Below, piece by piece: positions 1,501 through 32,586 of a DNA stretch of 64,000 bases. A model generated the notes under the pieces. It was not told where the DNA came from. It made no database searches and worked only from the letters and a program-made list of their open reading frames with translations. The stretch's first letter is position 1. Each line of letters begins with the position of its first letter. A program made the position numbers and the translations under genes. The DNA is from Planctomyces sp. (GTDB lineage Bacteria > Planctomycetota > Planctomycetia > Planctomycetales > Planctomycetaceae): positions 62,001 to 126,000 of the forward strand of contig JAHBXW010000010.1 in the NCBI GenBank assembly GCA_019636235.1, read 5' to 3'.

Positions 1501-2712
1501 TCATTCCCGATCGAGCGACAGGTGCTGCCGTGCGAGGTCGGCCCATGGACCGCGGGGGTTATGCGCCAGAAACGCTTCCCAGTGCGGCCGCGCTTCGCCG
1601 TCCCGGCCCTGCGTCGTCAGCAGGTCGGCCAGGTGATAATGGGCGTCCGGGAACTCCGGGTGCACGTCGAGCGCGATCCGGAACGCATCCGCCGCGGACT
1701 CCGCGTCTCCCATCTCCGTCAGCAGGCAACCGAGCTGCGTCCAGGCTTCGAGATAATCGTGATCATGCTCGACGGCCGCGTAATAACGTTCCAGCGCCCC
1801 GGACAGGGCGCCGGATCGGTACAGGCACTCCGCCAGGTGGAAATGCGCTTCCGGATAGGCCGGCGTCTGCATCACCGCGCAGCGGAAGGCTTCGACGGCC
1901 CCGTCGAGCTGTTCATCGGCGTACCGCCGACACCCCTCCTCGAACCAGTCGGTGGCGGACCAGTCGGGAACCGTCGTCCGCGCGACAAACGGCACGGCAG
2001 CCGGCTCGCTCTCCTCGTCCGGGGCCTCGTCCTCCGTCTGCGGATCGAAAGCCAGCAGCCTCTGGCCGCTGGCCGGCTCCTTCAGCCCATGATCGTCCCG
2101 CACTACGACACGCTGGTGATGCGCCAGCAGCCGCAACTGTTCGAGCGGCCGGCCCTGCCCCTGTTTCACCCCCGGCAGGTCCCTCAGGCTGCGTTCCAGT
2201 TCTTCGCGCGGCACGCCGGAGGCCAGGAGTTCCGACAGCCGCCGGGCGCTCGCCGCCTCCTGAAAATCGAAGTACGGCAGCCGATACACCTTCCGCACCG
2301 AACGGATCAGCCCGGCCCGCTCCCAACCCCGGATGACGTGCACCGATGTGTCCAGCAACTGGCTGAGCATCGCCGGCGTGTACAGCCTCCGAGACTCCTC
2401 CCGGCCTTCCGTCAGCCCCAGGAGCTGCAGAAAGTCCGATTCGCTGATGATCCGCAGTTCGCCCCCCGCTTCAAGAATCCGCTGCGCCTCCTGCAGCTTC
2501 ACCGACGGTCGGCCGTCGTTCTCCAGGGGCCAGCCCTCTTCGCCGACGACGAGCATCGTCGTCTGGCGGCTGATATGCTCGGACGCTTCGCCGCCGTGGC
2601 GTTCCGTCAGCTCGCCGGCCTGCGCGTGCGTCATCGAGGCCAGCACGCCCGTGAAGGCCACGCGCTCTCCCTGCAGGGCGGGCGAACTCGAAAGCGACGG
2701 GGGAGAGGGCAT
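1501..2712 (-). CDS. BRCT - MerR-like HTH - TPR fusion protein
   Basis: A 403-residue protein with three recognisable parts. Residues ~13-97 look like a BRCT domain (GERVAFTGVLASMTHAQAGEL, then TTMLVVGEEGW). Residues ~107-180 resemble a MerR-type winged helix (YTPAMLSQLLDTSVHVIRGW). Residues ~255-400 form tetratricopeptide repeats, with recurring AHFHLAE and AHYHLADLL patterns. BRCT domains bind phosphopeptides or DNA ends and MerR domains bind DNA, so a regulatory or DNA-linked scaffold role is plausible but inferred. The ATG at 2712 is chosen because the BRCT fold begins just after it; an earlier in-frame start at 2826 would add a low-complexity leader. It is divergent from truA across about 140 bases. 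No characterised homologue is recognised. Confidence 0.85.
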   Translation of the reverse strand: MPSPPSLSSSPALQGERVAFTGVLASMTHAQAGELTERHGGEASEHISRQTTMLVVGEEGWPLENDGRPSVKLQEAQRILEAGGELRIISESDFLQLLGLTEGREESRRLYTPAMLSQLLDTSVHVIRGWERAGLIRSVRKVYRLPYFDFQEAASARRLSELLASGVPREELERSLRDLPGVKQGQGRPLEQLRLLAHHQRVVVRDDHGLKEPASGQRLLAFDPQTEDEAPDEESEPAAVPFVARTTVPDWSATDWFEEGCRRYADEQLDGAVEAFRCAVMQTPAYPEAHFHLAECLYRSGALSGALERYYAAVEHDHDYLEAWTQLGCLLTEMGDAESAADAFRIALDVHPEFPDAHYHLADLLTTQGRDGEARPHWEAFLAHNPRGPWADLARQHLSLDRE

Positions 2713-2852
2713 ACCGCAGTGAACCAGGACTGGGCTCACTCCGCCGTCCCACCCGGGGATGCTCGCAGCGTCCGATGGGACGCGGCGAGGGCGGCGGACC
2801 AGCCTCCACGCCCCTCGATTGTTCAACCCTGGACCGGTTTCGCAACCCTCCC

Positions 2853-3644
2853 ATGACTCGCAACATCCGATTGACGCTGGCCTACGACGGCGGGGCCTAC
2901 GCCGGCTGGCAGGTCCAGCCCGATCGGCCGACGATCCAGCGGACGGTCGAGGAGGCGATTTGGAGCCTCACCGGCGAGCGAGTTTCGCTCCTGGCCGCGG
3001 GCCGCACTGACGCCGGCGTCCACGCGCTCGGGCAGGTCGCGAACTTTCGGACCGCCTCGCCCATCCCTCCCCAGAAATGGCGACCCGCCCTGCAGTCGAA
3101 GCTTCCGCCGGACATCGTCATCCGCGACAGCCGCGAGGTCCCGCTGGACTTTCATGCGACGTTCGCCGCCAAATCCAAGAGGTATCGGTATCTGATCCGC
3201 CACTCCATCGTCGACGACCCCTTTCTGCGGCGGTACTGCTGGCGGCTGGGAGGCGAGCTGGACGTCCCCGCCATGAACGTCGCGGCACAGTGTCTCGTCG
3301 GCACGCACGATTTCCGGAGTTTCGAATCGCACTGGCCGAACACGTCGACCAGCGTCCGCACGATGACCCGGGCGACCGCCTTTCGTACGTCGGCCTGGCT
3401 GCCTTGGAGCGTTCCGGAGACGGCCGATCCGGCTCGAGACTCGGGGCCGTTCGTGTGTTTCGAAATCGACGGGAACGGGTTTCTTTACAACATGGTGCGG
3501 GCGATCGTGGGGACGCTGGCGAACGTGGGCCGAGGCACGTGGACGGCCGATGATTTTCGGACCGCGCTGGCGGCGGGCGACCGTCGGCTCGCGGGAGAGA
3601 CGGCGCCCCCCCAGGGGCTGTACCTGGTGTCGGTCACATATTGA
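2853..3644 (+). CDS. truA: tRNA pseudouridine(38-40) synthase
   Basis: Cytosolic enzyme that isomerises uridines 38-40 in the anticodon stem-loop of tRNAs to pseudouridine. The 263-residue product matches the family in length. It shows the N-terminal RLTLAYDGGAYAGWQ, the catalytic aspartate in AAGRTDAGVHALGQV, the KRYRYLI strand, and the C-terminal GNGFLYNMVRAIVGTL. The start at 2853 (MTRNIRLTL) fits the family; an in-frame start 78 bases upstream would add a proline-rich leader with no counterpart. No Shine-Dalgarno sequence is visible. A strong hairpin follows the stop at 3666-3688. Confidence 0.97.
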   Translation: MTRNIRLTLAYDGGAYAGWQVQPDRPTIQRTVEEAIWSLTGERVSLLAAGRTDAGVHALGQVANFRTASPIPPQKWRPALQSKLPPDIVIRDSREVPLDFHATFAAKSKRYRYLIRHSIVDDPFLRRYCWRLGGELDVPAMNVAAQCLVGTHDFRSFESHWPNTSTSVRTMTRATAFRTSAWLPWSVPETADPARDSGPFVCFEIDGNGFLYNMVRAIVGTLANVGRGTWTADDFRTALAAGDRRLAGETAPPQGLYLVSVTY

Positions 3645-3665
3645 TTCCGGCAAAGAGACGGGCGC

Positions 3666-3688
3666 CACGGTCGGCTTGTCCGACCGTG
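3666..3688. terminator. Intergenic hairpin downstream of truA
   Basis: A perfect 9-bp stem, CACGGTCGG / CCGACCGTG, with loop CTTGT, sits 22 bases after the truA stop. There is no T-tract, so it may be a weak terminator, an mRNA 3' stabiliser, or a dispersed intergenic palindrome. Confidence 0.45.
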
Positions 3689-3850
3689 CCGACGGGGATC
3701 GTTGACCGGAGCGGCGGAGCCCTTGCTTGGACCGCCGGGGCCATCCGCACGGCCCCGCACGCTCATCGGCCAATTGCTGACTCTCGCCCCGCGTCCGCCT
3801 ACAATTCGCGCTGCCTCGTGCGACCCGCTCTTTCCCGTTACGTTCCGTCA

Positions 3851-4654
3851 ATGATCAAGCCCCGCGTCTGCGTCCTCCGAGCCCCTGGCACCAACTGCGA
3901 TGTCGAGACGGCGTTCGCCTTCGAAAACTGCGGCGCCGACGCCGAACGCGTGCACCTGTTCCGGCTGCTCGAGGACCCCTCGCTGCTGGACCGATTCCAG
4001 GTCCTGTGCGTGCCGGGCGGGTTCAGCTATGGCGACGACCTGGGCGCGGGGGTGGTGTTCGGCTCGCAGCTGCGGGGGCGGCTGGGCGATGCGTTCGGCC
4101 GGTTTCTGACGGCCGACAAGCTCGCGCTGGGCATCTGCAACGGGTTTCAGGTGCTGGTCAAAGCGGGCATCCTGCCGGACGGCGGCGAGGGCTGGTCGGG
4201 CGACGCGACGAAGCCCCGCGACATGACGCTGACCTGGAATCGGAACGGCACGTACACGGCGCTCTGGACCCGTCTGCGGGTCTGTTCGCCGAAGTGCGTC
4301 TTCCTGCGGGGCATCGAAACGATGGATGCGCCGATCGCCCACGCGGAAGGCCGGATCGCCGTGCGGGACCCCGCGATCCTCGACCGCTGGCGCGAGCGGG
4401 GCCAGGTCGCCCTGTGTTACGTCGACAGCGCTGGACAACAGTGTGCGGACGTCCTGCCCTGGCCCGACAATCCGAACGGCTCGTTCGCCAACATCGCCGG
4501 ACTGTGCGACGCGACCGGCCGCGTGTTCGGACTCATGCCGCACCCCGAGCGATTCCTGTTCGCGACTCAGCACCCGACGTGGACGCGCGACGGCCGCCAG
4601 GGGGAAGGGGACGGCATGAAGATCTTCCGGAACGCCGTTGAATACTTCGGCTGA
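3851..4654 (+). CDS. purQ: Phosphoribosylformylglycinamidine synthase subunit I (glutamine amidotransferase)
   Basis: Glutaminase subunit of FGAM synthase, step 4 of purine synthesis; it supplies ammonia to PurL with the help of PurS. The 267-residue protein has a class I amidotransferase fold: RAPGTNCD at the start, GGFSYGDDLGAG (oxyanion region), the nucleophilic cysteine in LGICNGFQVL, and the His-Glu pair in MPHPERF. The ATG at 3851 (MIKPRVCVLRAPG) matches the family N-terminus; upstream in-frame codons read as intergenic sequence. purL and purS are not in the window. Slightly longer than typical bacterial PurQ (~225-240), as in the variant used by organisms with separate PurL/PurQ/PurS. 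Confidence 0.96.
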   Translation: MIKPRVCVLRAPGTNCDVETAFAFENCGADAERVHLFRLLEDPSLLDRFQVLCVPGGFSYGDDLGAGVVFGSQLRGRLGDAFGRFLTADKLALGICNGFQVLVKAGILPDGGEGWSGDATKPRDMTLTWNRNGTYTALWTRLRVCSPKCVFLRGIETMDAPIAHAEGRIAVRDPAILDRWRERGQVALCYVDSAGQQCADVLPWPDNPNGSFANIAGLCDATGRVFGLMPHPERFLFATQHPTWTRDGRQGEGDGMKIFRNAVEYFG

Positions 4655-4708
4655 TCGGACTGCTCAGCAGGTTCCGAGGACCGGTCGGCTGGCGATTCTC
4701 CGTTCGAC

Positions 4709-6955
4709 TCAATCGCCGACAACCGCGCCGGTCCCGGACCCGGATCGCGGGTTTGCGCTGTCTGCCGCGTCGCCATCCGGCCGGGATCGCCCCGATAGCA
4801 CGACGAGCAGCAGCCCGATCGCCAGGCAGCCCGCCGACGCGACCAGCAGCCACCACGGCAGATGCGTGCGCCCTTCCATGTCCAGGCCGGCCGCCTGCAA
4901 CTCCTCGCGATAGCGCGCGATCGCCAGCAGGATGCCGTTGTGGGCCACATGGAACACGATGCCCGGCAACACGCTGCCGGACCGCAGTGCGATCGTGCCC
5001 AGCACGATCCCCAGCAACGTGCTCGGCAGAAACCGCTCCACGGCCAGCGATCCCCCAACCAGCAGATGAAACGCGCCGAAGGCGCAGGACGTTGCGATCA
5101 CGACGCCGGCGGCGCTCAGGCGCCGGGCGATCGACGCGAACAGCACGCCGCGGAAACTCAACTCCTCGAACACCGCCGGGACGACCGCCATGGACAGGAG
5201 CACGGCCGCGAACGGCACGTTGTTCCACTCCCGCAGAATCCCCGACACCCGTTCGAGCTGCTCGGGCCCCAGCGTCGAAATCCCCGCCGCCTGCTGCGCC
5301 AGCGCGACCTCATGCATCAGCGGCCACGTCAATAGACCGGCCAGCAGGCTGCCCGCGATGGCCAGTCCGGGCGCGCGATGCAGGCGGAACGCATCCAGCG
5401 CGGGTATTCGTTTCCAGACCGCGACCAGCCAAGGCCAGGCCCCGAACAGCAGCGCCGTCAGCAGTGCGTTCAGCAGCAGGCGCGTCGCAATGCTCAACCC
5501 AGCGGAGCGGCCGATCAGGCTGCCGAACACGAAGAACAATGGAAACACGATCACGAACACCGCCGCCGCGACATCGGGCGATGGTCGCGCGGGCTCGGGA
5601 GGCCGCCGGAACAGGTCGCCCCACCCGGCGCTGCTTCCCGCCAGCACGGCGTCGCTGCCGAACCACCGCGCGGCGACCGACAACGCGCCCATCCCGTACA
5701 ACAGCGTCGAACCGACCACGAGGATCGCCAGCCCCGCCGAGGCCGTGCCCAGCACCGTCGCCCGCGCCAGGAGCACAATGTTCAACAGCGGCACGACGGC
5801 GTACGCGGGGCTCAGCTCCACCCCCGGAATCAGGCTCACCACCCCCGGCGCCAGCGACACCAGCATCAAGGGAATCAGGTAGGCCTGCGCCTCCTTGAAG
5901 CTGCGGGCCACGCTCGTCAGGCACAGCAGCACCGCGGAGAAAAAGGCCGCGAACACCACCAGCAGGAAAAACAGCGCGGCGATCGCCCGAACCGTCACCC
6001 CCTGGTCGCCGAACAGCGCGGCGTCCAACCCCACCGACTGCATCGTGATCAGCATGGCCGCCATGTTGATGCCGGCCGTCAGCACCGCCACCGTCACTAC
6101 CGCCACGTACTTGGCCAGCAGAATCCCCAGCCGCGACACCGGCGCAGCGATCAGCGTCTCCAGCGTGTGGCGCTCGCGCTCTCCCGCGGTCAGGTCGATC
6201 GATGGATAGACGGCCCCCGTCACCGTCATCAACAACAACACCAGCGGCACCAGGCTGGCCAGCATCGCCCCCGCCGCTTCCCGCGAGGGCAGCACCGTCA
6301 CGATCACCTCCGCCACGTTTGTTGGCCGGCCCGATTCCACCGCCACCCGGTGCAGCCAGTTCGCGTTCACCGCTTCAATGCGGTCCAGCACGTAGCGGTA
6401 GGCCGCCGTGCTGCGCGGAGAGCCCTCGACGTACACCAGCCGCAACAGGCCGCCCGCTTCGGCGTCCCGTCCGAATTCCGGACGCTGCTCCAGGACGATC
6501 CCCAGATCGACCAGCCCCATGGCGACATGCGCATCGACGTCGTACGGCGGCTGGCCGGGATCCGGGCGGCTGGCATGCAGCACCGGCTCCTGCGACAGCT
6601 GGGCGGCGGAGTCCCCCGGATCAGTGGCAGAGCTTTGTTGCTCGAACCGGCGGCGGAACCGTTCGCGGCTGCGATGCAGCTCCCGCCCCTGCTCGATCAA
6701 CCGCTCGATGAGCCGCGCCTGTTCCTCGGTCGCGAAGGCCACGAAATACTCGGGCCGCGAGTCCGCCGACAACTGGGTCAGCAGCAGCCGTTGAAACGCG
6801 ACGCCCAGCAGCGGGTACGCCAGCACGGGCATCAGGATGAGAGTCAGCAGCGTGCGGCGGTCCCGCAGCGTCTCGCGGAGTTCTTTGCCGACGAGCCGGA
6901 ACCGTCGGGGCCAGGGCGAGCCGCGCTGACCCGCGGTCGGCGACGGTTGGTTCAC
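4709..6955 (-). CDS. ABC-2 permease fused to CPBP intramembrane protease
   Basis: A 748-residue membrane protein. The first half is an ABC-2/NatB-type permease: [17 protein letters not shown] at the cytoplasmic start, a large external loop, and the [17 protein letters not shown] signature before a cluster of membrane segments. The second half, from about residue 470, adds membrane helices and a CPBP (CAAX/Abi) protease core with EELSFRG near residue 597, GAFH near 630 and HVAHN near 669. The start is a GTG at 6955, overlapping the ATP-binding gene stop as GTGA, so the pair is translationally coupled. Longer in-frame readings upstream lie inside the ATPase gene and are rejected. Family knowledge suggests sodium or drug export; the role of the protease half is unknown. 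Confidence 0.88.
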
Positions 6956-25678: not shown

Positions 25679-27457
25679 TCACGGGGTCTCCGTAGGCGGC
25701 GTGATGTCGAAACACGCCAGCTCCTCGTCGCTCCGCACGTACAGCCGGCCATGCGCGAGGATCGGGTGGTTCCAGCACTTGCCGGAGATCGCCTGAAACT
25801 CGCCGAGTTCCTCGTGCCGTTCGGGGTTCGCGGCCACCAGGATCACATTCCCCTTCTCGCCCAGGACAAGGATCCGGTCCTGATCGGGAATCAGGAGCTG
25901 CTGGCCAAATCCGTAGCGCCCCTTCTTCCAGCGGCGTTTGCCCGTCTCGGCGTCGACGCAGCAGAAGATCCCGTCATCGAGTCCGTACAGATGCCCTTTG
26001 TGCAGGGCGAAGTCATTGAACGACGGCTTGAGGGCGTTTGATGTCCACTCCTGGACGACGCTCCATTCGCCGTCGGCGGGCGTCAGCGCCAGCCGGATGA
26101 TCCCGTTGTCCCAGCCCGCGATGAGCCGACCCTCGCCGACGAGGTGCGGCTGCAGCATGGGTTGCGCGGTCTCGCTGTCGCTGGCATGCCGCCACAGGAC
26201 GCGGCCGTCGTCGACGGCGACGCCCATCAGCCCGCGGTTGTCCTGCATGACGATCTGACGGACTCCGTGGATCGTCATCAGTTGCGGCGAGCTGTAGCTC
26301 TGCGTGCCCCCCGGCGCGGCCCAGCGCTGTTCGCCAGTCTCCGCATCCAGCGCGACGAGCGACCGCCCCTCGCCGCCCCCGGCGAACAGGACGACCATCC
26401 CGTCCACAACCAGCGGCGACACCGAGAAGCCCCATTGCGGCACGGCTCCGCCCGCGGACTGGAGGGCGTTCTGCGACCACACGCAGCGTCCGTCGGCCGA
26501 TTCCAGACAGTTCAACAGCCCCGTGGCGCCCGAGGCGTAAATCCGCCCATCGGCGAATGTGGGCGTGCCGCGCGGGCCGGGACCGGACAACGCTTCATAG
26601 AACCGGAACGAGTCGTCGTGCGTCCATTGCTCCTGACCCATCGCGGCGTCGTAGCACACGATCGTTTCGACCTCTCCCCGCTGTTCCTGGGTGACCAGCC
26701 GACCGTCGACAAGGATCATGCTCGACCAGGCCGGACCGACCGCCTGCTTCCAGACGAGCCGGGGGGGATGCTGCGCCCAGTCCGCGAGCGCGACGTTGGC
26801 GACGGCCCCTTCCCGCGCGCCGCCCCGAAACGACGTCCAGTCGCCCGGCTGCTCGATCCAGTTTTCGGACGGGAGCGTGATCTCGGGAACGACTCCGGCG
26901 CGGGAGGCGAGAAACCGCTCTTCGCGGCTGGGCGTCCACCGCCAGGCGAACTGCGAAGACTGCCGGCCGTCGAGCCCCTCCCAGCGCAGCAGGGCGAATA
27001 CGCCGAACACCAGGACCGGGACGGCGCTCAACCCCAGCAGCCGGGTCAGGGGCCGGGACGATCGCGTGAGCGCCAGCCAGGCGACGCCCAGCGTGGCAAT
27101 CCAGGGGACGCCGGACAGGATCATCCCGAAAGCGTCGACGGACGGATCCGACACCCGGGAGGCGACGACCAGCGACGCCAGCGCGACGGCCGGAACCAGC
27201 AGTTTCGCCCGCCACCGGAAATGGCGGCTCGCGAACCACCAGATCAGCGTCGTCAGCAGCAACAGGGTCGTCACCGCCATGCGCGACAGGAAGCGGTGCA
27301 GCATCGCCAGTTCGACATACGGCGCGGCGAGCGTATAGGTCCAGAAGATCGCCAGCGCGATGGCGGGCGCCAGCAGACGCAACGGAGGTCGGGCGGTCGC
27401 GGTCGGTTGCGACGATGGAATCGGAGCGAGATTCGGTGCGGATTCAGGCGTGGACAT
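25679..27457 (-). CDS. Membrane-anchored PQQ-like beta-propeller protein
   Basis: A 592-residue protein with a membrane N-terminal half and an extracytoplasmic propeller. After a Pro/Ser-rich start there are about five helices up to residue ~170 (for example LLAPAIALAIFWTYTLA, LLLLTTLIWWFA, LLGLSAVPVLVFGVFALL). Then WTSFRGGAREGAV opens a PQQ_2-type WD-like propeller with repeated blades such as LVALDAETGEQRW and CVDAETGKRRW. There is no sign of a catalytic dehydrogenase motif, so a binding or scaffolding role is more likely. The ATG at 27457 overlaps the upstream PadR gene by 14 bases, so both are cotranslated. Confidence 0.86.
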   Translation of the reverse strand: MSTPESAPNLAPIPSSQPTATARPPLRLLAPAIALAIFWTYTLAAPYVELAMLHRFLSRMAVTTLLLLTTLIWWFASRHFRWRAKLLVPAVALASLVVASRVSDPSVDAFGMILSGVPWIATLGVAWLALTRSSRPLTRLLGLSAVPVLVFGVFALLRWEGLDGRQSSQFAWRWTPSREERFLASRAGVVPEITLPSENWIEQPGDWTSFRGGAREGAVANVALADWAQHPPRLVWKQAVGPAWSSMILVDGRLVTQEQRGEVETIVCYDAAMGQEQWTHDDSFRFYEALSGPGPRGTPTFADGRIYASGATGLLNCLESADGRCVWSQNALQSAGGAVPQWGFSVSPLVVDGMVVLFAGGGEGRSLVALDAETGEQRWAAPGGTQSYSSPQLMTIHGVRQIVMQDNRGLMGVAVDDGRVLWRHASDSETAQPMLQPHLVGEGRLIAGWDNGIIRLALTPADGEWSVVQEWTSNALKPSFNDFALHKGHLYGLDDGIFCCVDAETGKRRWKKGRYGFGQQLLIPDQDRILVLGEKGNVILVAANPERHEELGEFQAISGKCWNHPILAHGRLYVRSDEELACFDITPPTETP

Positions 27458-28139
27458 GGCGGGTCGGGGGATCGGTGTCGTGTGGGGGACCGGGCGGATC
27501 GGGACGGTGTGGAGACTCGGGGCCACGGGCCGCGTCGAGCAGTTCCTGGGGGCTCCAGGCGAGACGTCCTTCACGCAGCTCGTCGCGAAGTGCGTCGATC
27601 CAGTCGCGTTCAGCGCGCTTCATCGCGGCGGCGTACTCGACTTCAATCAGGCACAGTCGCCCGATCTGGGGCTGCAGCGATTTCAGCAGCGCGTCGAGGG
27701 CGACGAGTTCGCATTCGAGCGCGCGGCTGCGGAGTTCGAGGTGGTCGGCCGCCTCCTCCGGATCGAGATGCGGCAGAAAACTGAGCGCGGCCACGAATGA
27801 TGAGGGTTCGCGAATGGGAGTCGCCAGGAGGTGGCGGAGCCATTCCAGCACATGGGCTTCGCCGTCGGCGGTGATGGCGTAGACCGTGCGTTCGGGCCGC
27901 CGTCCTTCGCGGGACGTGGCGACTTCGTCGATGAGTCCGTCGGCGCGAAGGCGGCTGATCGCGTGGTAAAGCGATCCGCGTTTCAGGGACAGGAAGTCCT
28001 CGTTATGCCGTTCGAGGATCAGCTTCTGCATCTGATAGGGATGCATGGGCTGCTCGCGGAGCAGACAGAGGACTGTCAGTGACCAGAGGTTTCCAAAGGA
28101 TGCGGACACGGTTTCCGATCGGAACGGCGAATAGCTCAT
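27444..28139 (-). CDS. PadR-family transcriptional regulator
   Basis: A 231-residue cytosolic repressor-type protein. The winged helix is at residues ~15-95: LTVLCLLREQPMHPYQMQKLI, then LKRGSLYHAISRLRADGLI and the wing GRRPERTVYAITADGEA. A helical C-terminal dimerisation region follows (residues ~100-195), then a Pro/His-rich tail. The ATG at 28139 (MSYSPFRSETV) is chosen over a TTG three codons upstream. The stop lies inside the next gene, a membrane PQQ-propeller protein, so the regulator and its presumed target share one transcript. Autoregulation is typical of the family but no operator is obvious. Confidence 0.9.
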   Translation of the reverse strand: MSYSPFRSETVSASFGNLWSLTVLCLLREQPMHPYQMQKLILERHNEDFLSLKRGSLYHAISRLRADGLIDEVATSREGRRPERTVYAITADGEAHVLEWLRHLLATPIREPSSFVAALSFLPHLDPEEAADHLELRSRALECELVALDALLKSLQPQIGRLCLIEVEYAAAMKRAERDWIDALRDELREGRLAWSPQELLDAARGPESPHRPDPPGPPHDTDPPTRHVHA

Positions 28140-28298
28140 GTGAACCAATTCGCACGAGCCATGCGGATCTTAAACGAATTCCTCCGAAATCGCCAATCCG
28201 CAAAGCTGGACCTGCCCAGCCGACAGCAAGCATTCGCGACCGCGCTGACCGCTCCCATGACCCCGGGGCCGTCAACAGCAAAACTCGACCCCGCCCAT

Positions 28299-30497
28299 TC
28301 AATATCGCCGAATCTTCGCGTCCATCGGCGTCAGTCGGCACGGACGCAGGATCCGCTGTTCCACCGAGAGCACTTCATAGATCGCAATCTCGTTTTCCCC
28401 TTCGTGGAACAGGTCCTCCGAAACGATCGCGCTGAACCAGCCGGCCGCGCGTTCGTCGTCATACGTCCGCGTCACCGCACCGATTCCTCCGTTCACCGCA
28501 ATCACGATCGACTGCGGCGGCCAGCTCAGGTCCCAGGCCACATTGCAGCCCTCGAACACGCAAGGCACGACCGTCTCCGTGGCCAACGAGCCCCCCAGCG
28601 CCAGCGCCAAGCTGTGTTGCGGGACGCCCTCCACTCGAAAGTCTTCGAGGTCCGCGCCCACCCAATCCGGCATTCCGCCCAACCCGTATTCCTCCGGGAT
28701 CGGGGTCTGAAAGTCCGCGTGCAGACGCTTAAGCGTGTCGAACCGCTCGGCGAAGTCGGGGCGGAGCAGGACCGCGTGATTATCGACCTCGAGCGTCTTG
28801 CGGGGACGGTCGCTCCGCGCAGCGTCGAGAATCGACTGTCCGTCAACCGGTCCGGAGAGGGGCATGTCGATCACCTCCGCGATCGTCGGCAGTATGTCGA
28901 TGATCTCGACGTTCCGGTTCCGTAGCGCATCCGGCAGCCGCTCATTGCCGGGCAGCTTGATGAACAGCGGCACGCCGGCGATTTCGGGGACGTTGTCGCG
29001 CATCGGCTCGCGACGGTTCAATCCGGGCGCGAACGCCGCCCCATGGTCGGCCGTGACGATCAGCAGGCAGTCATCCCACAGGCCCCGCTCCTGCAGCGTG
29101 TCGATCAGGCGTCCAATGAAATGGTCGGCGTAGCCGACCTGCAGTTGATAGCGCTCGCGGCAGTTGCGGACCCCGAGCTTGTCGTCGATCCACTCCTCCT
29201 GCCGCCACATTGCGGCCGCGAATTCACCGAACCGCAACTCGGGGGCATAGGTTCGTCCGGACGGCAGGTTTGCCCAGGGGTAATGCGGGACCGCGACATG
29301 CAGAAAGTCGATGCGCGGCCGGTCGGCGGGTTGCAGCCCCTCAAGGAAGTCCCTGAACTGCCGCTCGTGCTGGCCGTCCCAGGGGAACCGCACGACGTCG
29401 GGATCGACGCCGCCGTCGAGCGAAGGCATTTCGCCCATATTGAAGAACGCGCGCGGGACGGGAGTTTCCGGCAGCGGCGTGTCGATCGGCAGGGTGATGT
29501 GCCGGTACACGGCGGCCAGCGTCCAGGCGATCTCCGCAGGCCGCGGCCGGGCGGCGCGCTGCAGGTCATCGGGCCCCGGCTGTTTGGGCGTGCACAGCCG
29601 GGTGAAAGGTTCAAACACCTTGCGGTCGTAGGCGCTGGTGCGGCGGAGGAGCGCGAACAGATTGTCGGGGAAGTAAGCCTCCGTCGACGGGCTCGTCTTC
29701 TCGTTGATCATGCCGGTCATCATCGCCGGCAACGCCCGCTCCGTCCGGTGGTGCACGGTTGTCGCGGCGGGAAACCAGTTCGCCTGCTGTTCGAGCCGTG
29801 CGAAGTTCGGGAAGGTCGCCGCGTCAATCCGCCCTTCGACATCCAGGATCGCCAGTCCGCTGAACTCGTCGAATACGACCATCACGATCGGAACCGGGTT
29901 CGCGGCGTGCATCGTCGCCGGAGGAACTTCGGGCTCGGGCACGAGGATCCGGTAGGCCGGACTCGCAAACAGGCATTTCGCGGGAAAGGCCAGCACGCCC
30001 ACAGCCGCAATCGTTAGAAACAGATGCAGCTTCCGCGACCGGCGATACAGGCGCCAGACGACCGCCGCCCCGGCCGTCGCCAGAAACAGCGAAACGAACC
30101 AGGGGACGCCGGCGTCCCGCAGCGTCGAATCGACAATGGACCGGACGGCGCCGCAGAACGCCAGCCAGGCCAGCAGAAACACGAATACGAGATGCGCCCG
30201 CCACGCCCCCCGTGCGGCGATCCGTTCAATGAGTTCCTCGATCGCGAACAACAGCAGCGGCGCGGCGAACAGCAGCGCGGCGACGATCAGCAGCAGACCC
30301 GCAGGGGGCAGATTCTGATCCGTGAAGTACATCGTCCTGCGAGAAATCTGCTCCAGCAACGGCTGAGCGATGGCGAAGCCCGACAGCGCGAACAGATGCA
30401 GGAACCGCACCAGGCGCGAGGGCGCCGGGGTCACGGTCGCATCGGCGGCGCCGGGACGAGCCGCGGCGGCTGGCGGTTTCACAGTCGCGATTGTCAT
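28299..30497 (-). CDS. Membrane-anchored sulfatase-fold enzyme (alkaline phosphatase superfamily)
   Basis: A 732-residue protein with five N-terminal helices (residues ~29-180) and a periplasmic catalytic domain. The domain begins IVMVVFDEFSGLAILD with metal ligand Asp210, then TTVHHRTERALPAMMTG, where Thr252 is the likely nucleophile, and later LIVTADHGAAFAPG with Asp and His ligands. This plan matches LtaS/EptA-like phosphoglycerol or phosphoethanolamine transferases more than soluble sulfatases, as no Cys-x-Pro-x-Arg sulfatase motif is seen. Start at 30497 overlaps the methyltransferase gene stop as ATGA. With the upstream methyltransferase and microprotein it forms one operon, suggesting modification of a surface glycan or lipid. 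Confidence 0.87.
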   Translation of the reverse strand: MTIATVKPPAAAARPGAADATVTPAPSRLVRFLHLFALSGFAIAQPLLEQISRRTMYFTDQNLPPAGLLLIVAALLFAAPLLLFAIEELIERIAARGAWRAHLVFVFLLAWLAFCGAVRSIVDSTLRDAGVPWFVSLFLATAGAAVVWRLYRRSRKLHLFLTIAAVGVLAFPAKCLFASPAYRILVPEPEVPPATMHAANPVPIVMVVFDEFSGLAILDVEGRIDAATFPNFARLEQQANWFPAATTVHHRTERALPAMMTGMINEKTSPSTEAYFPDNLFALLRRTSAYDRKVFEPFTRLCTPKQPGPDDLQRAARPRPAEIAWTLAAVYRHITLPIDTPLPETPVPRAFFNMGEMPSLDGGVDPDVVRFPWDGQHERQFRDFLEGLQPADRPRIDFLHVAVPHYPWANLPSGRTYAPELRFGEFAAAMWRQEEWIDDKLGVRNCRERYQLQVGYADHFIGRLIDTLQERGLWDDCLLIVTADHGAAFAPGLNRREPMRDNVPEIAGVPLFIKLPGNERLPDALRNRNVEIIDILPTIAEVIDMPLSGPVDGQSILDAARSDRPRKTLEVDNHAVLLRPDFAERFDTLKRLHADFQTPIPEEYGLGGMPDWVGADLEDFRVEGVPQHSLALALGGSLATETVVPCVFEGCNVAWDLSWPPQSIVIAVNGGIGAVTRTYDDERAAGWFSAIVSEDLFHEGENEIAIYEVLSVEQRILRPCRLTPMDAKIRRY

Positions 30498-31924
30498 CGG
30501 GGCCGGACGTCGAACAGGGTGCGGGTCCCGGATGGCAGGTCCAGCGTCTGCAGCACGTCGAACCGCAGGCGGAGCTCCCGCTCGAAATTCTCGCGGGAAT
30601 AGTCCTCGCACCCGTCGGTGCGGTTCTTCAGCAGCGAGCGGACCTGCGGATCCTCGCGGTCGACGAACTCGATGACGCTGCGGTCTCCCGCCAGCCGGAA
30701 CCACTCCAGAAGTTCGCCCAGCCGCAGGTTCTCCCGGATGACCAGGTGGTGAATCAGCGCCAGCGCCAGAATCAGGTCCGGTCGTCCGCGGCGCTCCAGC
30801 GGGCGGCGTTCCGCGCCGCGCCAGCCCAGCCCGGGCGAAGCGTCCGCCAGGTTGACCACCAGCGGCAGGATCAATGTCTGGCCTTCATCGCCAAGATCGC
30901 GATACAGGCGCTCGATGGTCCAGTGGTCGAAATCCATGGCGACCACGTGCGCCGCGCGGCGGGCGGCGATTCGCGAATAACGCCCCAGGTTGCAGCCCAG
31001 GTCCCAGGCCAGTTTCCAACGACCGGATTCGACGACGCGGCCGACGAAGTCCTCTTTGGCGACGGCGTCCTGGCGGACCGGCTCTGATTCCGCGTCGTAT
31101 TCCGACCATGCGGAGCCGGATTCCTGCCAACTCAGTCGCGATACGGTCCGGCGGAGCTTGGAAACGTTCGCCAGGATCAGCGACCGGTTGAACCCGCTTT
31201 GCTGCAACCCCTGGCGCGTCGACTTCCCCTCGCGATCGGCCCGGCCCTCCAGCGCCGCGTGCAGCACGACATGCGTCAGGACGCCGCGCCGCAGCCAGTC
31301 CCGAATCGACAGCAGCCGAACGAACTGCCCCGGTGCGATGCCGCTGATCCGACCCCTCAGCCAGGGCTGAAAATCGATGCCGCGGTAGGCCTGCAGCATC
31401 AGCGGATACAGCATCGTCTGGCAGAACTGGCGATAGCCGATCCAGGGCTCCGCAGGATGGTGCTGGACGAACGACCCGAGATCGATGAAGCAGGGGCGGA
31501 CGCCGCGGAACTGCACGTTGAACGGCGTGGCGTCCTTGAGTATGAGTTCCTCGGCAAGGGCCGCCTGCAGGAGATCGAGGTGCAGGAGGGCCGCGTCGCG
31601 GAGCATTCCAAAGCACCATTCGTACGGATAGGAGACGAATGGCAAGGGGTCGTGCTCGAGGACGGCCGCCCAGCCGCTGTCCTCGCCGGAGCGCGCGTCC
31701 CGAGGAGGCGGCACGTCATCGACCAGGCGCGTGCGGACGATGCGGCCCGTCTGCATGTCGTGTTTAAGAAACGACGCCGCGCTCAATCGTCGCCAGTCCT
31801 GAAGCGCAGTCTCGCTGAGGGCGCGGTACAACCCGCTCCCGCGACGAAAGACCCGGCTGTCCCGATCACGAAATGAGCCGGGATCGAATTCGGCCGAGTC
31901 GCGCGCAGCGACGACAGCACTCAT
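30494..31924 (-). CDS. NoeA-like SAM methyltransferase with N-terminal kinase-like region
   Basis: A 476-residue protein in two parts. The N-terminal half has features reminiscent of protein-kinase-like folds: VSYPYEWCFGMLRDAALLHLDL, LILKDATPFNVQF (residues 128-139) and RPCFIDLGSF (residues 143-152), resembling catalytic-loop and DFG-type positions. The C-terminal half is a class I methyltransferase with AWDLGCNLGRYS (residues ~306-317) and VVAMDFD. This two-part plan is known in proteins annotated as NoeA-like (nodulation factor) methyltransferases. It lies 29 bases downstream of a 55-codon membrane protein and overlaps the sulfatase-fold gene by 4 bases. Substrate is unknown; a membrane-linked glycan is inferred from context. 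Confidence 0.83.
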   Translation of the reverse strand: MSAVVAARDSAEFDPGSFRDRDSRVFRRGSGLYRALSETALQDWRRLSAASFLKHDMQTGRIVRTRLVDDVPPPRDARSGEDSGWAAVLEHDPLPFVSYPYEWCFGMLRDAALLHLDLLQAALAEELILKDATPFNVQFRGVRPCFIDLGSFVQHHPAEPWIGYRQFCQTMLYPLMLQAYRGIDFQPWLRGRISGIAPGQFVRLLSIRDWLRRGVLTHVVLHAALEGRADREGKSTRQGLQQSGFNRSLILANVSKLRRTVSRLSWQESGSAWSEYDAESEPVRQDAVAKEDFVGRVVESGRWKLAWDLGCNLGRYSRIAARRAAHVVAMDFDHWTIERLYRDLGDEGQTLILPLVVNLADASPGLGWRGAERRPLERRGRPDLILALALIHHLVIRENLRLGELLEWFRLAGDRSVIEFVDREDPQVRSLLKNRTDGCEDYSRENFERELRLRFDVLQTLDLPSGTRTLFDVRPR

Positions 31925-31953
31925 GCGAACCAGTTTCCGCGACGAGGGGCGGA

Positions 31954-32121
31954 TCAGCGGGAGAGATCATCCAGCGGGCTGGGCGCGGCGAACGTGCGGC
32001 GCACGGCATCCCAGATGTACTTGCCGAACACGACAAGTCCGGCGCCGCCGCCGACCAGCGCCTGCAGCAACAGACTTCCCGAACCGGGATCCAGGTAGCC
32101 AAGCGTGTTGAACGGTTCCAT
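31954..32121 (-). CDS. DPGSGS-type single-span membrane microprotein
   Basis: A 55-residue protein beginning MEPFNTLGYLDPGSGSLLLQ. After the DPGSGS motif comes one hydrophobic helix (LLLQALVGGGAGLVVFGKYIW) and a short basic-acidic tail ending DDLSR. A good AGGAG ribosome site lies about 7 bases before the ATG. From memory, short proteins with YLDPGSGS plus one helix occur beside NoeA-like methyltransferases and sulfatase-fold enzymes in other bacteria. This is the first gene of the same arrangement here, 29 bases upstream of the methyltransferase gene. A role as membrane anchor or cofactor of the enzyme pair is inferred, not shown. Confidence 0.8.
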   Translation of the reverse strand: MEPFNTLGYLDPGSGSLLLQALVGGGAGLVVFGKYIWDAVRRTFAAPSPLDDLSR

Positions 32122-32586
32122 GTTGGCTGCTCCTGACGGCGCGCAGTTCCACCGCGGCGCCGCATGTTGGCTGGTTTCTGCGGTTCGGCATCGGCCTGCC
32201 CGACTTGGCCGCCGACCGCACTGTTCAGGGAATGTGTTGAGTGTTCAGTTCGAACACCGCCCGCATAGCCCTGGTTCCGGAAAACGGACGGCTTTTGGAG
32301 AACTTTTCAGTGAGTTTTTCTTGGGTTTTCATAGATGTGAATGCGCGCTTTCATAAATGCGAGCGCGGGCCGGAAAACCGTGCGATTCGCGCGCTGCAGC
32401 CTGCGGCGATGCGCCCGAGATCGCCGCATCGGCAATGTCCGCCGGAGATCGCGCCCAGGTCAGCAAGCCGATGTCGCCGGCCGCTGGAATGAAGCAGCAG
32501 CGACCGCGGCCGCTCAGCCCCGCGACCGCCGCGCACGGGGCCGCCGTGGATTGCCGGGCGGCGTCCACTATAGTCTCGTTGCCCAG
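32122..32586. other. Divergent promoter region
   Basis: Gene-free stretch between the microprotein and moxR. Bases 32276-32350 are distinctly A+T-rich and hold an imperfect tandem pair (TTTTCATAGATGTGAATGCGCGC at 32327-32348 region and TTTCATAAATGCGAGCGCG at 32349-32367). Open frames across it are not supported. Confidence 0.45.

Follow-up and report, generated by a model that had tools for sequence, protein, structure and literature searches.

A DPGxGS microprotein, a NoeA-type kinase-methyltransferase and a NoeB-type membrane protein form a widespread gene module with a tentatively proposed role in envelope phospho-modification

Three closely packed genes in a Planctomyces sp. genome raise the question of whether they form one system and what that system might do. 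They lie consecutively on the minus strand of a 64,000-nucleotide (nt) stretch (NCBI GenBank assembly GCA_019636235.1, contig JAHBXW010000010.1, positions 62,001 to 126,000; hereafter the window), and encode a 55-amino-acid (aa) microprotein with a YLDPGSGS motif, a kinase-methyltransferase related to the rhizobial protein NoeA (MT), and a membrane protein of the alkaline phosphatase superfamily homologous to NoeB (SULF). Our analysis indicates that the trio is a genuine and widespread module of the NoeA/NoeB type, built of two genes plus one. The tightest pair is the microprotein and SULF, which make up a two-part core to which an exchangeable cytosolic enzyme is added. We tentatively propose, at a probability of roughly 0.4, that the trio serves envelope phospho-modification as a self-contained module, in which MT would phosphorylate and methylate, SULF would act outside, and the microprotein would join the two. 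A first-pass annotation had described the microprotein, the MT, a SULF with five transmembrane segments, a 29-base gap and a 4-base ATGA overlap, all of which were confirmed; the gap separates the microprotein stop from the MT start in the open reading frame (ORF) maps. The genes are arranged as follows.

31954..32121, minus strand: DPGSGS microprotein gene, 55 aa (ATG start; selection in relatives; adjacency to MT)
30494..31924, minus strand: NoeA-type kinase-methyltransferase (MT), 476 aa (homology, conserved sites, AlphaFold predicted local distance difference test (pLDDT) 88.9)
30494..30497, minus strand: ATGA overlap of the MT stop and the SULF start, 4 bases (sequence)
28299..30497, minus strand: SULF, membrane alkaline-phosphatase-superfamily protein and NoeB homologue, 732 aa (Pfam, AlphaFold, alignment)

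Is the trio kept together elsewhere? Public genomes were scanned with an MT profile, and the best 80 of 572 confirmed stretches, which are not a random sample, span at least nine phyla by database label. Two of these end at a contig edge, leaving 78 testable loci, 76 of which have the microprotein beside MT. A script filter (same strand, upstream, ≤700 nt) placed it at 73, and three loci were added from tables (L125, overlapping; L131, adjacent on the opposite strand; L148, one gene away). SULF was found within 2.6 kb of MT in 39 of the 51 loci whose flanking sequence was long enough on either side, its density being 0.17 matches per kb near MT versus 0.008 per kb farther off (5 in 602 kb), a ~20-fold difference. 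When all neighbours of the MT loci were clustered, only MT, the microprotein and SULF recurred in more than eight loci, and no recurring O-antigen cluster was found beside the trio.

The reverse search started from the microprotein. Within the window's own phylum, a profile located it in 24 of 392 genomes, at 28 places, with MT at 19, SULF without MT at 6 and neither at 3; the 12 seeds of this first profile all came from the same phylum, so the count is partly circular. Three other phyla gave matches in 8/299, 23/198 and 4/198 genomes (each of the four genome counts includes the centre genome, a known carrier). The 37 new loci from these three phyla, taken with flanks of only 1.5 kb, so that SULF beyond MT was usually cut off and is undercounted, comprised 26 with MT, 10 with SULF without MT and 1 with neither; 36 thus adjoin MT and/or SULF. 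The second microprotein profile, which gave these loci, drew most of its seeds from MT loci and is biased toward MT-linked microproteins. The remaining locus (L211) carries a YVGPGAG variant (1408-1722) adjoining an arylsulfotransferase gene.

The co-occurrence therefore held in both the forward (76/78) and the reverse (36/37) search, bearing out the earlier view of the trio as one conserved unit. The stronger claim of a three-part system stood in part: the trio is conserved, but its core is the microprotein with SULF. MT is best described as an exchangeable part because SULF occurs without MT at 16 of 65 microprotein loci, several of which carry a Glyphos_transf-type enzyme in its place.

Pairwise distances of MT, the microprotein and SULF correlate with r of 0.72 to 0.83 across 25 loci, a figure to which shared ancestry contributes. 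The MT tree (79 rows) largely follows the phyla, with 11 phylum-label changes against a minimum possible of 8 and a shuffled mean of 35.7. In this tree, the window MT groups with Planctomycetota (6-row set; Shimodaira-Hasegawa-like approximate likelihood ratio test (SH-aLRT) 99), and horizontal transfer of the window copy is not favoured despite the absence of MT from the congener G087. The trio as an anti-phage or toxin-type system is very improbable. Its patchy distribution in the genome counts above would fit such a role, as would a weak PADLOC mads_2 match in the methyltransferase part of MT (E 0.002 and 1e-4), but the match spans the generic methyltransferase fold, the tree is ordered largely by phylum, and both the kinase and the methyltransferase sites are strictly kept. 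Among individual loci, we noted two labelled Bifidobacterium breve (L139, L140) whose MT falls among Ilumatobacteraceae-type Actinomycetota, so that the labels are probably wrong; an MT interrupted by an in-frame TAG (L054, 9504-10913), which reflects either a disrupted copy or an error in sequencing; and two near-identical microprotein genes with SULF genes between them (L148, 4228-8367), a local duplication.

What, then, is the microprotein? Its sequence begins MEPFNTLGYLDPGSGS and continues into one hydrophobic helix, and the following features were assigned to its gene.

32130..32134, minus strand: AGGAG putative ribosome-binding site, 8 nt 5' of the microprotein ATG (consensus match alone)
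32074..32097, minus strand: YLDPGSGS octapeptide, predicted outer-face N-terminal segment (conservation; preceded in many relatives by a signal peptide with a terminal Ala)
32020..32073, minus strand: single transmembrane helix with a conserved small-residue face, GG.AG (conservation in relatives)

Pfam gave no match to the microprotein, and NCBIfam none that was credible (only sub-threshold beta-lactamase matches along a helix, E ≥0.005). A degenerate DNA motif pattern found nothing in its own genome because serine codons had been limited to TCN, and a search with the single 55-aa protein was dominated by noise (matches in 109 of 199 genomes at E≤1), so a profile was needed. The ratio of nonsynonymous to synonymous polymorphism (pN/pS) is ~0.03-0.13 in the closest relatives, with a median of 0.31 over 143 looser pairs; on this low ratio and the adjacency to MT, the microprotein is a real gene. 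A tRNA-Asp called by ARAGORN within it (31973-32065) was rejected as a false positive, with Rfam at gathering score finding tRNA-Met only. No sigma-70-type promoter was found 5' of the three genes.

We aligned 76 relatives of the microprotein (the motif pattern missed one more, at L106). The motif Tyr and Asp are invariant (76/76), the last motif residue is Ser or Thr in 73/76, and residue 5 is Ser or Thr in 66/76 and Ala in 9/76. On the GG.AG helix face, G16 is present in 70/76 and A18 in 73/76 (numbered from the motif Tyr as 0). Lys or Arg at the cytosolic edge of the helix is strongly kept, and the cytosolic tail is variable. A signal-peptide-like N-terminus, recognized by a heuristic rather than a trained predictor, ends directly before the motif Tyr in 33/76 relatives, which argues for the motif lying outside and the tail in the cytosol; the microprotein should thus be a single span with its N-terminus out and its C-terminus in.

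Two natural fusions agree with this topology. At L187, a signal peptide, the motif and the helix precede a Glyphos_transf domain, a cytosolic phosphotransferase, and at L232, a YVDP variant of the motif is joined to a SULF-like protein (SULF profile E 8e-14). The first-pass annotation had proposed an assembly factor; what stands is a possible joining role, which would fit these two fusions. Beside the L187 fusion lies a gene (1782-4748) whose 988-aa product combines a YidC-like (60KD_IMP) domain with a Sulfatase match too weak for the Pfam cut-off (E 0.003). A variant microprotein reading MYIDPGTGG occurs in L189 (8123-8452) and L190 (1726-2031), the former copy being followed by a type I phosphodiesterase. 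In L069 (4321-12693), a microprotein is found with a phosphoenolpyruvate (PEP) mutase-cytidylyltransferase gene and two SULF genes; by eye, further genes resemble phosphonopyruvate decarboxylase and dehydrogenase, and this is likely a phosphonate-transfer version.

The microprotein could instead be the acceptor, the outer Ser/Thr of YLDPG[ST]GS receiving a phospho-group or phospho-glycan and the product being a decorated membrane peptide. The outer octapeptide is indeed its most conserved part while the tail varies, and the neighbour clustering shows no other conserved gene that supplies a substrate. However, the Tyr, Asp and Gly residues and the helix face are conserved as well, which looks structural, the Ala at residue 5 in some relatives is at odds with acceptance there, and the enzyme fusions of L187 and L232 fit a subunit better than a product. 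We regard the acceptor role as rather unlikely.

What chemistry might MT perform? Three sites carry the argument.

31481..31534, minus strand: MT kinase catalytic segment D131..N136..D148 (LKDATPFN...FID; in 124/124 sequences; sub-threshold WbdD alignment)
30746..30751, minus strand: MT H392-H393, methyltransferase site (aligned with WbdD H132-H133)
30521..30523, minus strand: MT R468, possible counterpart of WbdD R203 (equivalence from spacing only)

In Pfam, MT gave only sub-threshold methyltransferase matches. Against NoeA it shows 32% identity over 464 aligned positions (E 9e-70), covering both domains, so the NoeA relationship recognized at first reading holds. Site conservation was assessed in 124 sequences, possibly with some loci counted twice. 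The kinase residues R34 (in place of Lys), D131, N136 and D148 are present in all 124, and the invariant catalytic triad upholds the kinase-like reading of the N-terminal half; the assignment of a kinase fold draws on these motifs, the AlphaFold secondary structure, the sub-threshold WbdD alignment and a published family analysis (PMC9758233). The methyltransferase motif is equally firm (D308 in 123/124, N312 in 124/124, G314 in 123/124), as is the His pair (H392 in 122/124, H393 in 123/124). R468 is found in 32/32 and 122/124 sequences, and triad, His pair and R468 occur together in 121/124, the exceptions being L125, L137 and the truncated L145.

When the MT family profile was compared with solved structures, the best matches were four WbdD entries (E 1.3e-4 to 3e-3), with H392-H393 set on WbdD H132/H133 and R468 outside this hidden Markov model (HMM) alignment. 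In WbdD, the phosphate site is lined by H132/H133 and R203, which the enzyme requires to methylate the phosphate but not to phosphorylate; mutating H132/H133 abolishes methylation (PMC3482155). We therefore consider it a well-supported hypothesis that MT resembles WbdD at both active sites and would phosphorylate its substrate and then methylate the phosphate. WbdD, the enzyme of E. coli O9a that adds a methyl-phosphate cap, likewise combines a kinase and a phosphate methyltransferase in one chain with matching catalytic residues, but its methyltransferase comes first and its kinase second, whereas the window MT starts with the kinase and ends with the methyltransferase. Given this reversed domain order, MT may work like WbdD but is not WbdD, which moreover has a coiled-coil and acts on polyprenol-linked O antigen, as described in PMC3482155.

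SULF, the partner of the microprotein in the core, has three parts.

29967..30416, minus strand: SULF five-helix N-terminal membrane part (AlphaFold helices 28-177)
28725..29900, minus strand: SULF alkaline-phosphatase-fold catalytic domain with Thr252 (structure matches over residues 198-591; conservation)
28311..28613, minus strand: SULF C-terminal beta-rich domain (AlphaFold strands 629-729)

The start was placed at the ATG at 30497, a longer GTG ORF reaching 30704 being unnecessary. Pfam assigns the protein to Sulfatase (E 2.4e-21). In its AlphaFold model (pLDDT 82), five membrane helices at the N-terminus are followed by an alkaline-phosphatase-fold domain and, at the C-terminus, by a beta domain for which no Pfam family was found. 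The nucleophile position, Thr252 (context TERALPAMMTG), is Thr in 90% of 67 sequences, so the five helices and the Thr nucleophile recognized at first reading both stand; the metal ligands are D210 (99%), H405 (99%), D484 (100%) and H485 (82%). Formylglycine sulfatases use a Cys or Ser nucleophile in a C/S-x-P-x-R motif. SULF lacks this residue, and Thr in its place argues against a formylglycine mechanism and for a phosphotransferase. LtaS and EptA combine membrane helices, an alkaline-phosphatase-fold domain and a Thr nucleophile. SULF shares the five-helix membrane part, the fold and the Thr with LtaS and EptA/EptC, and differs from them in its extra C-terminal beta domain, its microprotein partner and the lack of a known donor. 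A transferase is further favoured by SULF profile matches to lipoteichoic acid synthases/primase and by its structural match to EptC. From these features, we infer that SULF transfers rather than hydrolyses.

Alternatively, SULF may be a hydrolase or regulator, similar to YejM/PbgA or to phosphonate monoester hydrolases, that trims or senses phosphorylated envelope lipids. Its best profile matches are phosphonate monoester hydrolases (E 2e-29, 4.9e-26, 8.8e-24), with sulfatases next and lipoteichoic acid synthases/primase lower (E 2.6e-16 to 9e-14). In structure, the nearest fold is that of sulfatases (Z up to 30.1, root-mean-square deviation (rmsd) 3.4, 312 aligned), a fold common to the superfamily, followed by EptC (Z 26.6, rmsd 3.7, 310 aligned) and YejM/PbgA (Z 26.0-26.4), whose structures match both the membrane and the catalytic parts (6xlp, Z 26.0, rmsd 11.8, 408 aligned). 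However, phosphonate monoester hydrolases use a Cys-derived formylglycine, transferases are usually laid out as membrane-embedded Thr-type enzymes, and the metal ligands and Thr of SULF are conserved. A hydrolase or regulator is therefore unlikely.

Has such a module been met before? SULF aligns with NoeB (hhalign 96.6%, E 6.6e-10, 313 columns; both Pfam Sulfatase), and the gene order in Sinorhizobium meliloti, the symbiont of alfalfa, is nodL, an unnamed 71-aa ORF, noeA and noeB. This ORF reads ...AHA-YLDPGTGS... and is intact in strain 1021, where it occupies pSymA 419091-419306 and its end overlaps the start of noeA; from its sequence, it is a DPGxGS microprotein, and the operon matches the window in having MT and SULF homologues in the same order with the microprotein directly before noeA. 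The ORF DNA is present in 58 Sinorhizobium/Ensifer plasmid records, 56 of them at ≥99% identity, and a few plasmid copies are 215 or 218 bases long, so that a shifted frame is possible there. NoeA sits on a long branch of the MT tree, and NoeB has 553 aa as opposed to the 732 aa of the window SULF. Reportedly, noeA and noeB have been named as host-range genes since 1995, with a biochemical function lacking since.

By extension, the trio might modify secreted lipochitooligosaccharide-like signals, since noeA and noeB are host-range nodulation genes whose products are hypothesized to modify Nod factors (PMC9048898, PMC10945364, PMC9758233). However, no nodL lies beside the trio and the window gene maps hold no nod genes, although the window was not searched specifically for them. 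The trio is also spread over the nine or more phyla noted above, and Nod factor production is not known for most of them, making such a role improbable.

A second relative comes from Legionella, where Lani_1194, homologous to NoeA, combines a kinase with a methyltransferase domain and has Lani_1193 (65%) and Lani_1195 (38%) among its neighbours over 816 neighbourhoods (PMC9758233, 2022). The family thus shares with the window a kinase-methyltransferase, an alkaline-phosphatase-fold neighbour and a conserved neighbourhood; it differs in that Lani_1193/1194/1195 are read as a putative Legionella effector set, and the main text, as far as available, does not describe a DPGSGS peptide. We infer that Lani_1193 is a DPGxGS microprotein. 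The NoeA/NoeB-type pair is hence already in print, and the trio as a neighbourhood probably is too. In the literature searched, we found no description of the DPGSGS/DPGTGS microprotein or of a biochemical function for NoeA/NoeB; the identity of the peptide, the WbdD-like phosphate-methyl site and the independence of the module from MT are likewise absent from that literature, and the WbdD match at both active sites and the predicted topology of the microprotein are new here. The first-pass statement that the trio is not functionally described accordingly holds for biochemical function, and needs qualifying for the host-range genes and the 2022 neighbourhood report (PMC9758233). Among small partner proteins, DltX offers a possible parallel: it spans the membrane once and is required alongside a membrane enzyme for the decoration of teichoic acid (PMC10903887), but its partner enzymes are others.

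How might the parts work together? The envelope phospho-modification reading starts from the gene order, the two-way conservation, the motif conservation, the WbdD active-site alignment, the topology hints and the fusions; the kinase and phosphate-methyl activity, the phosphotransfer by SULF, the joining role of the microprotein and any substrate stay conditional. In the cytosol, the N-terminal kinase domain of the NoeA-type enzyme would phosphorylate a hydroxyl, most likely one carried by a sugar or lipid linked to the membrane, and the C-terminal domain would then methylate the phosphate to a methyl phosphodiester, as WbdD does. At the outer face, the five-helix SULF/NoeB protein with its outward Thr nucleophile would act on the phosphodiester, probably transferring the group to a final acceptor. 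The YLDPGxGS end of the microprotein would lie beside the SULF active domain while its tail reaches the cytosolic enzyme, joining both sides of the membrane.

Several points weigh against this proposal. The kinase segment of MT aligns non-significantly with that of WbdD (-3.7 bits; N136 on N356, D148 on D369), R468 is equated with R203 by a spacing of 75 versus 70 residues after the His pair, and WbdD was not among the top 50 of the structural re-ranking in a fold search with the methyltransferase half of MT. His pairs also occur in the non-phosphate methyltransferases NodS or RebM (PMC3482155), so the pair alone is no proof. Hydrolysis by SULF is possible because sulfatases are its closest fold and phosphonate monoester hydrolases its best profile matches, and the loci with SULF and no MT imply that the MT product is not the sole SULF substrate. 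Pfam does not recognize the SULF-like part of L232, the microprotein is missing at two of the 78 testable MT loci (L081 and L105), no glycan gene recurs beside the trio in the clustering of MT-locus neighbours, and no biochemistry was found for any trio member in the literature searched.

A broader version would make the module a general system for transferring methyl-phosphate, or a small phosphonate, at the outer face, with N-out YLDPGxGS peptides as the obligatory transmembrane coupler of its transferases, also in CDP-glycerol-type or phosphonate pathways (L187, L232, L236, L069). The methyl phosphodiester from NoeA-type enzymes would then be the substrate class of the Thr-type alkaline-phosphatase-fold transferases. 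We consider this version doubtful.

Downstream of SULF on the same strand lie genes for a PadR-type regulator (27444-28148) and a BamB/PQQ-type beta-propeller protein (25679-27574).

For the family, the analysis suggests a testable chemistry for noeA and noeB, namely phosphorylation followed by methylation of the phosphate, and adds beside noeA a small, conserved gene, which the model strain S. meliloti 1021 also carries, within a module that extends far outside the rhizobia. Were the general transfer system true, the nodL-noeA-noeB operon would contain an overlooked fourth gene and would influence host range through decoration with methyl-phosphate. If the envelope phospho-modification reading is true, the trio would define a modification of the envelope together with a coupler-peptide family.

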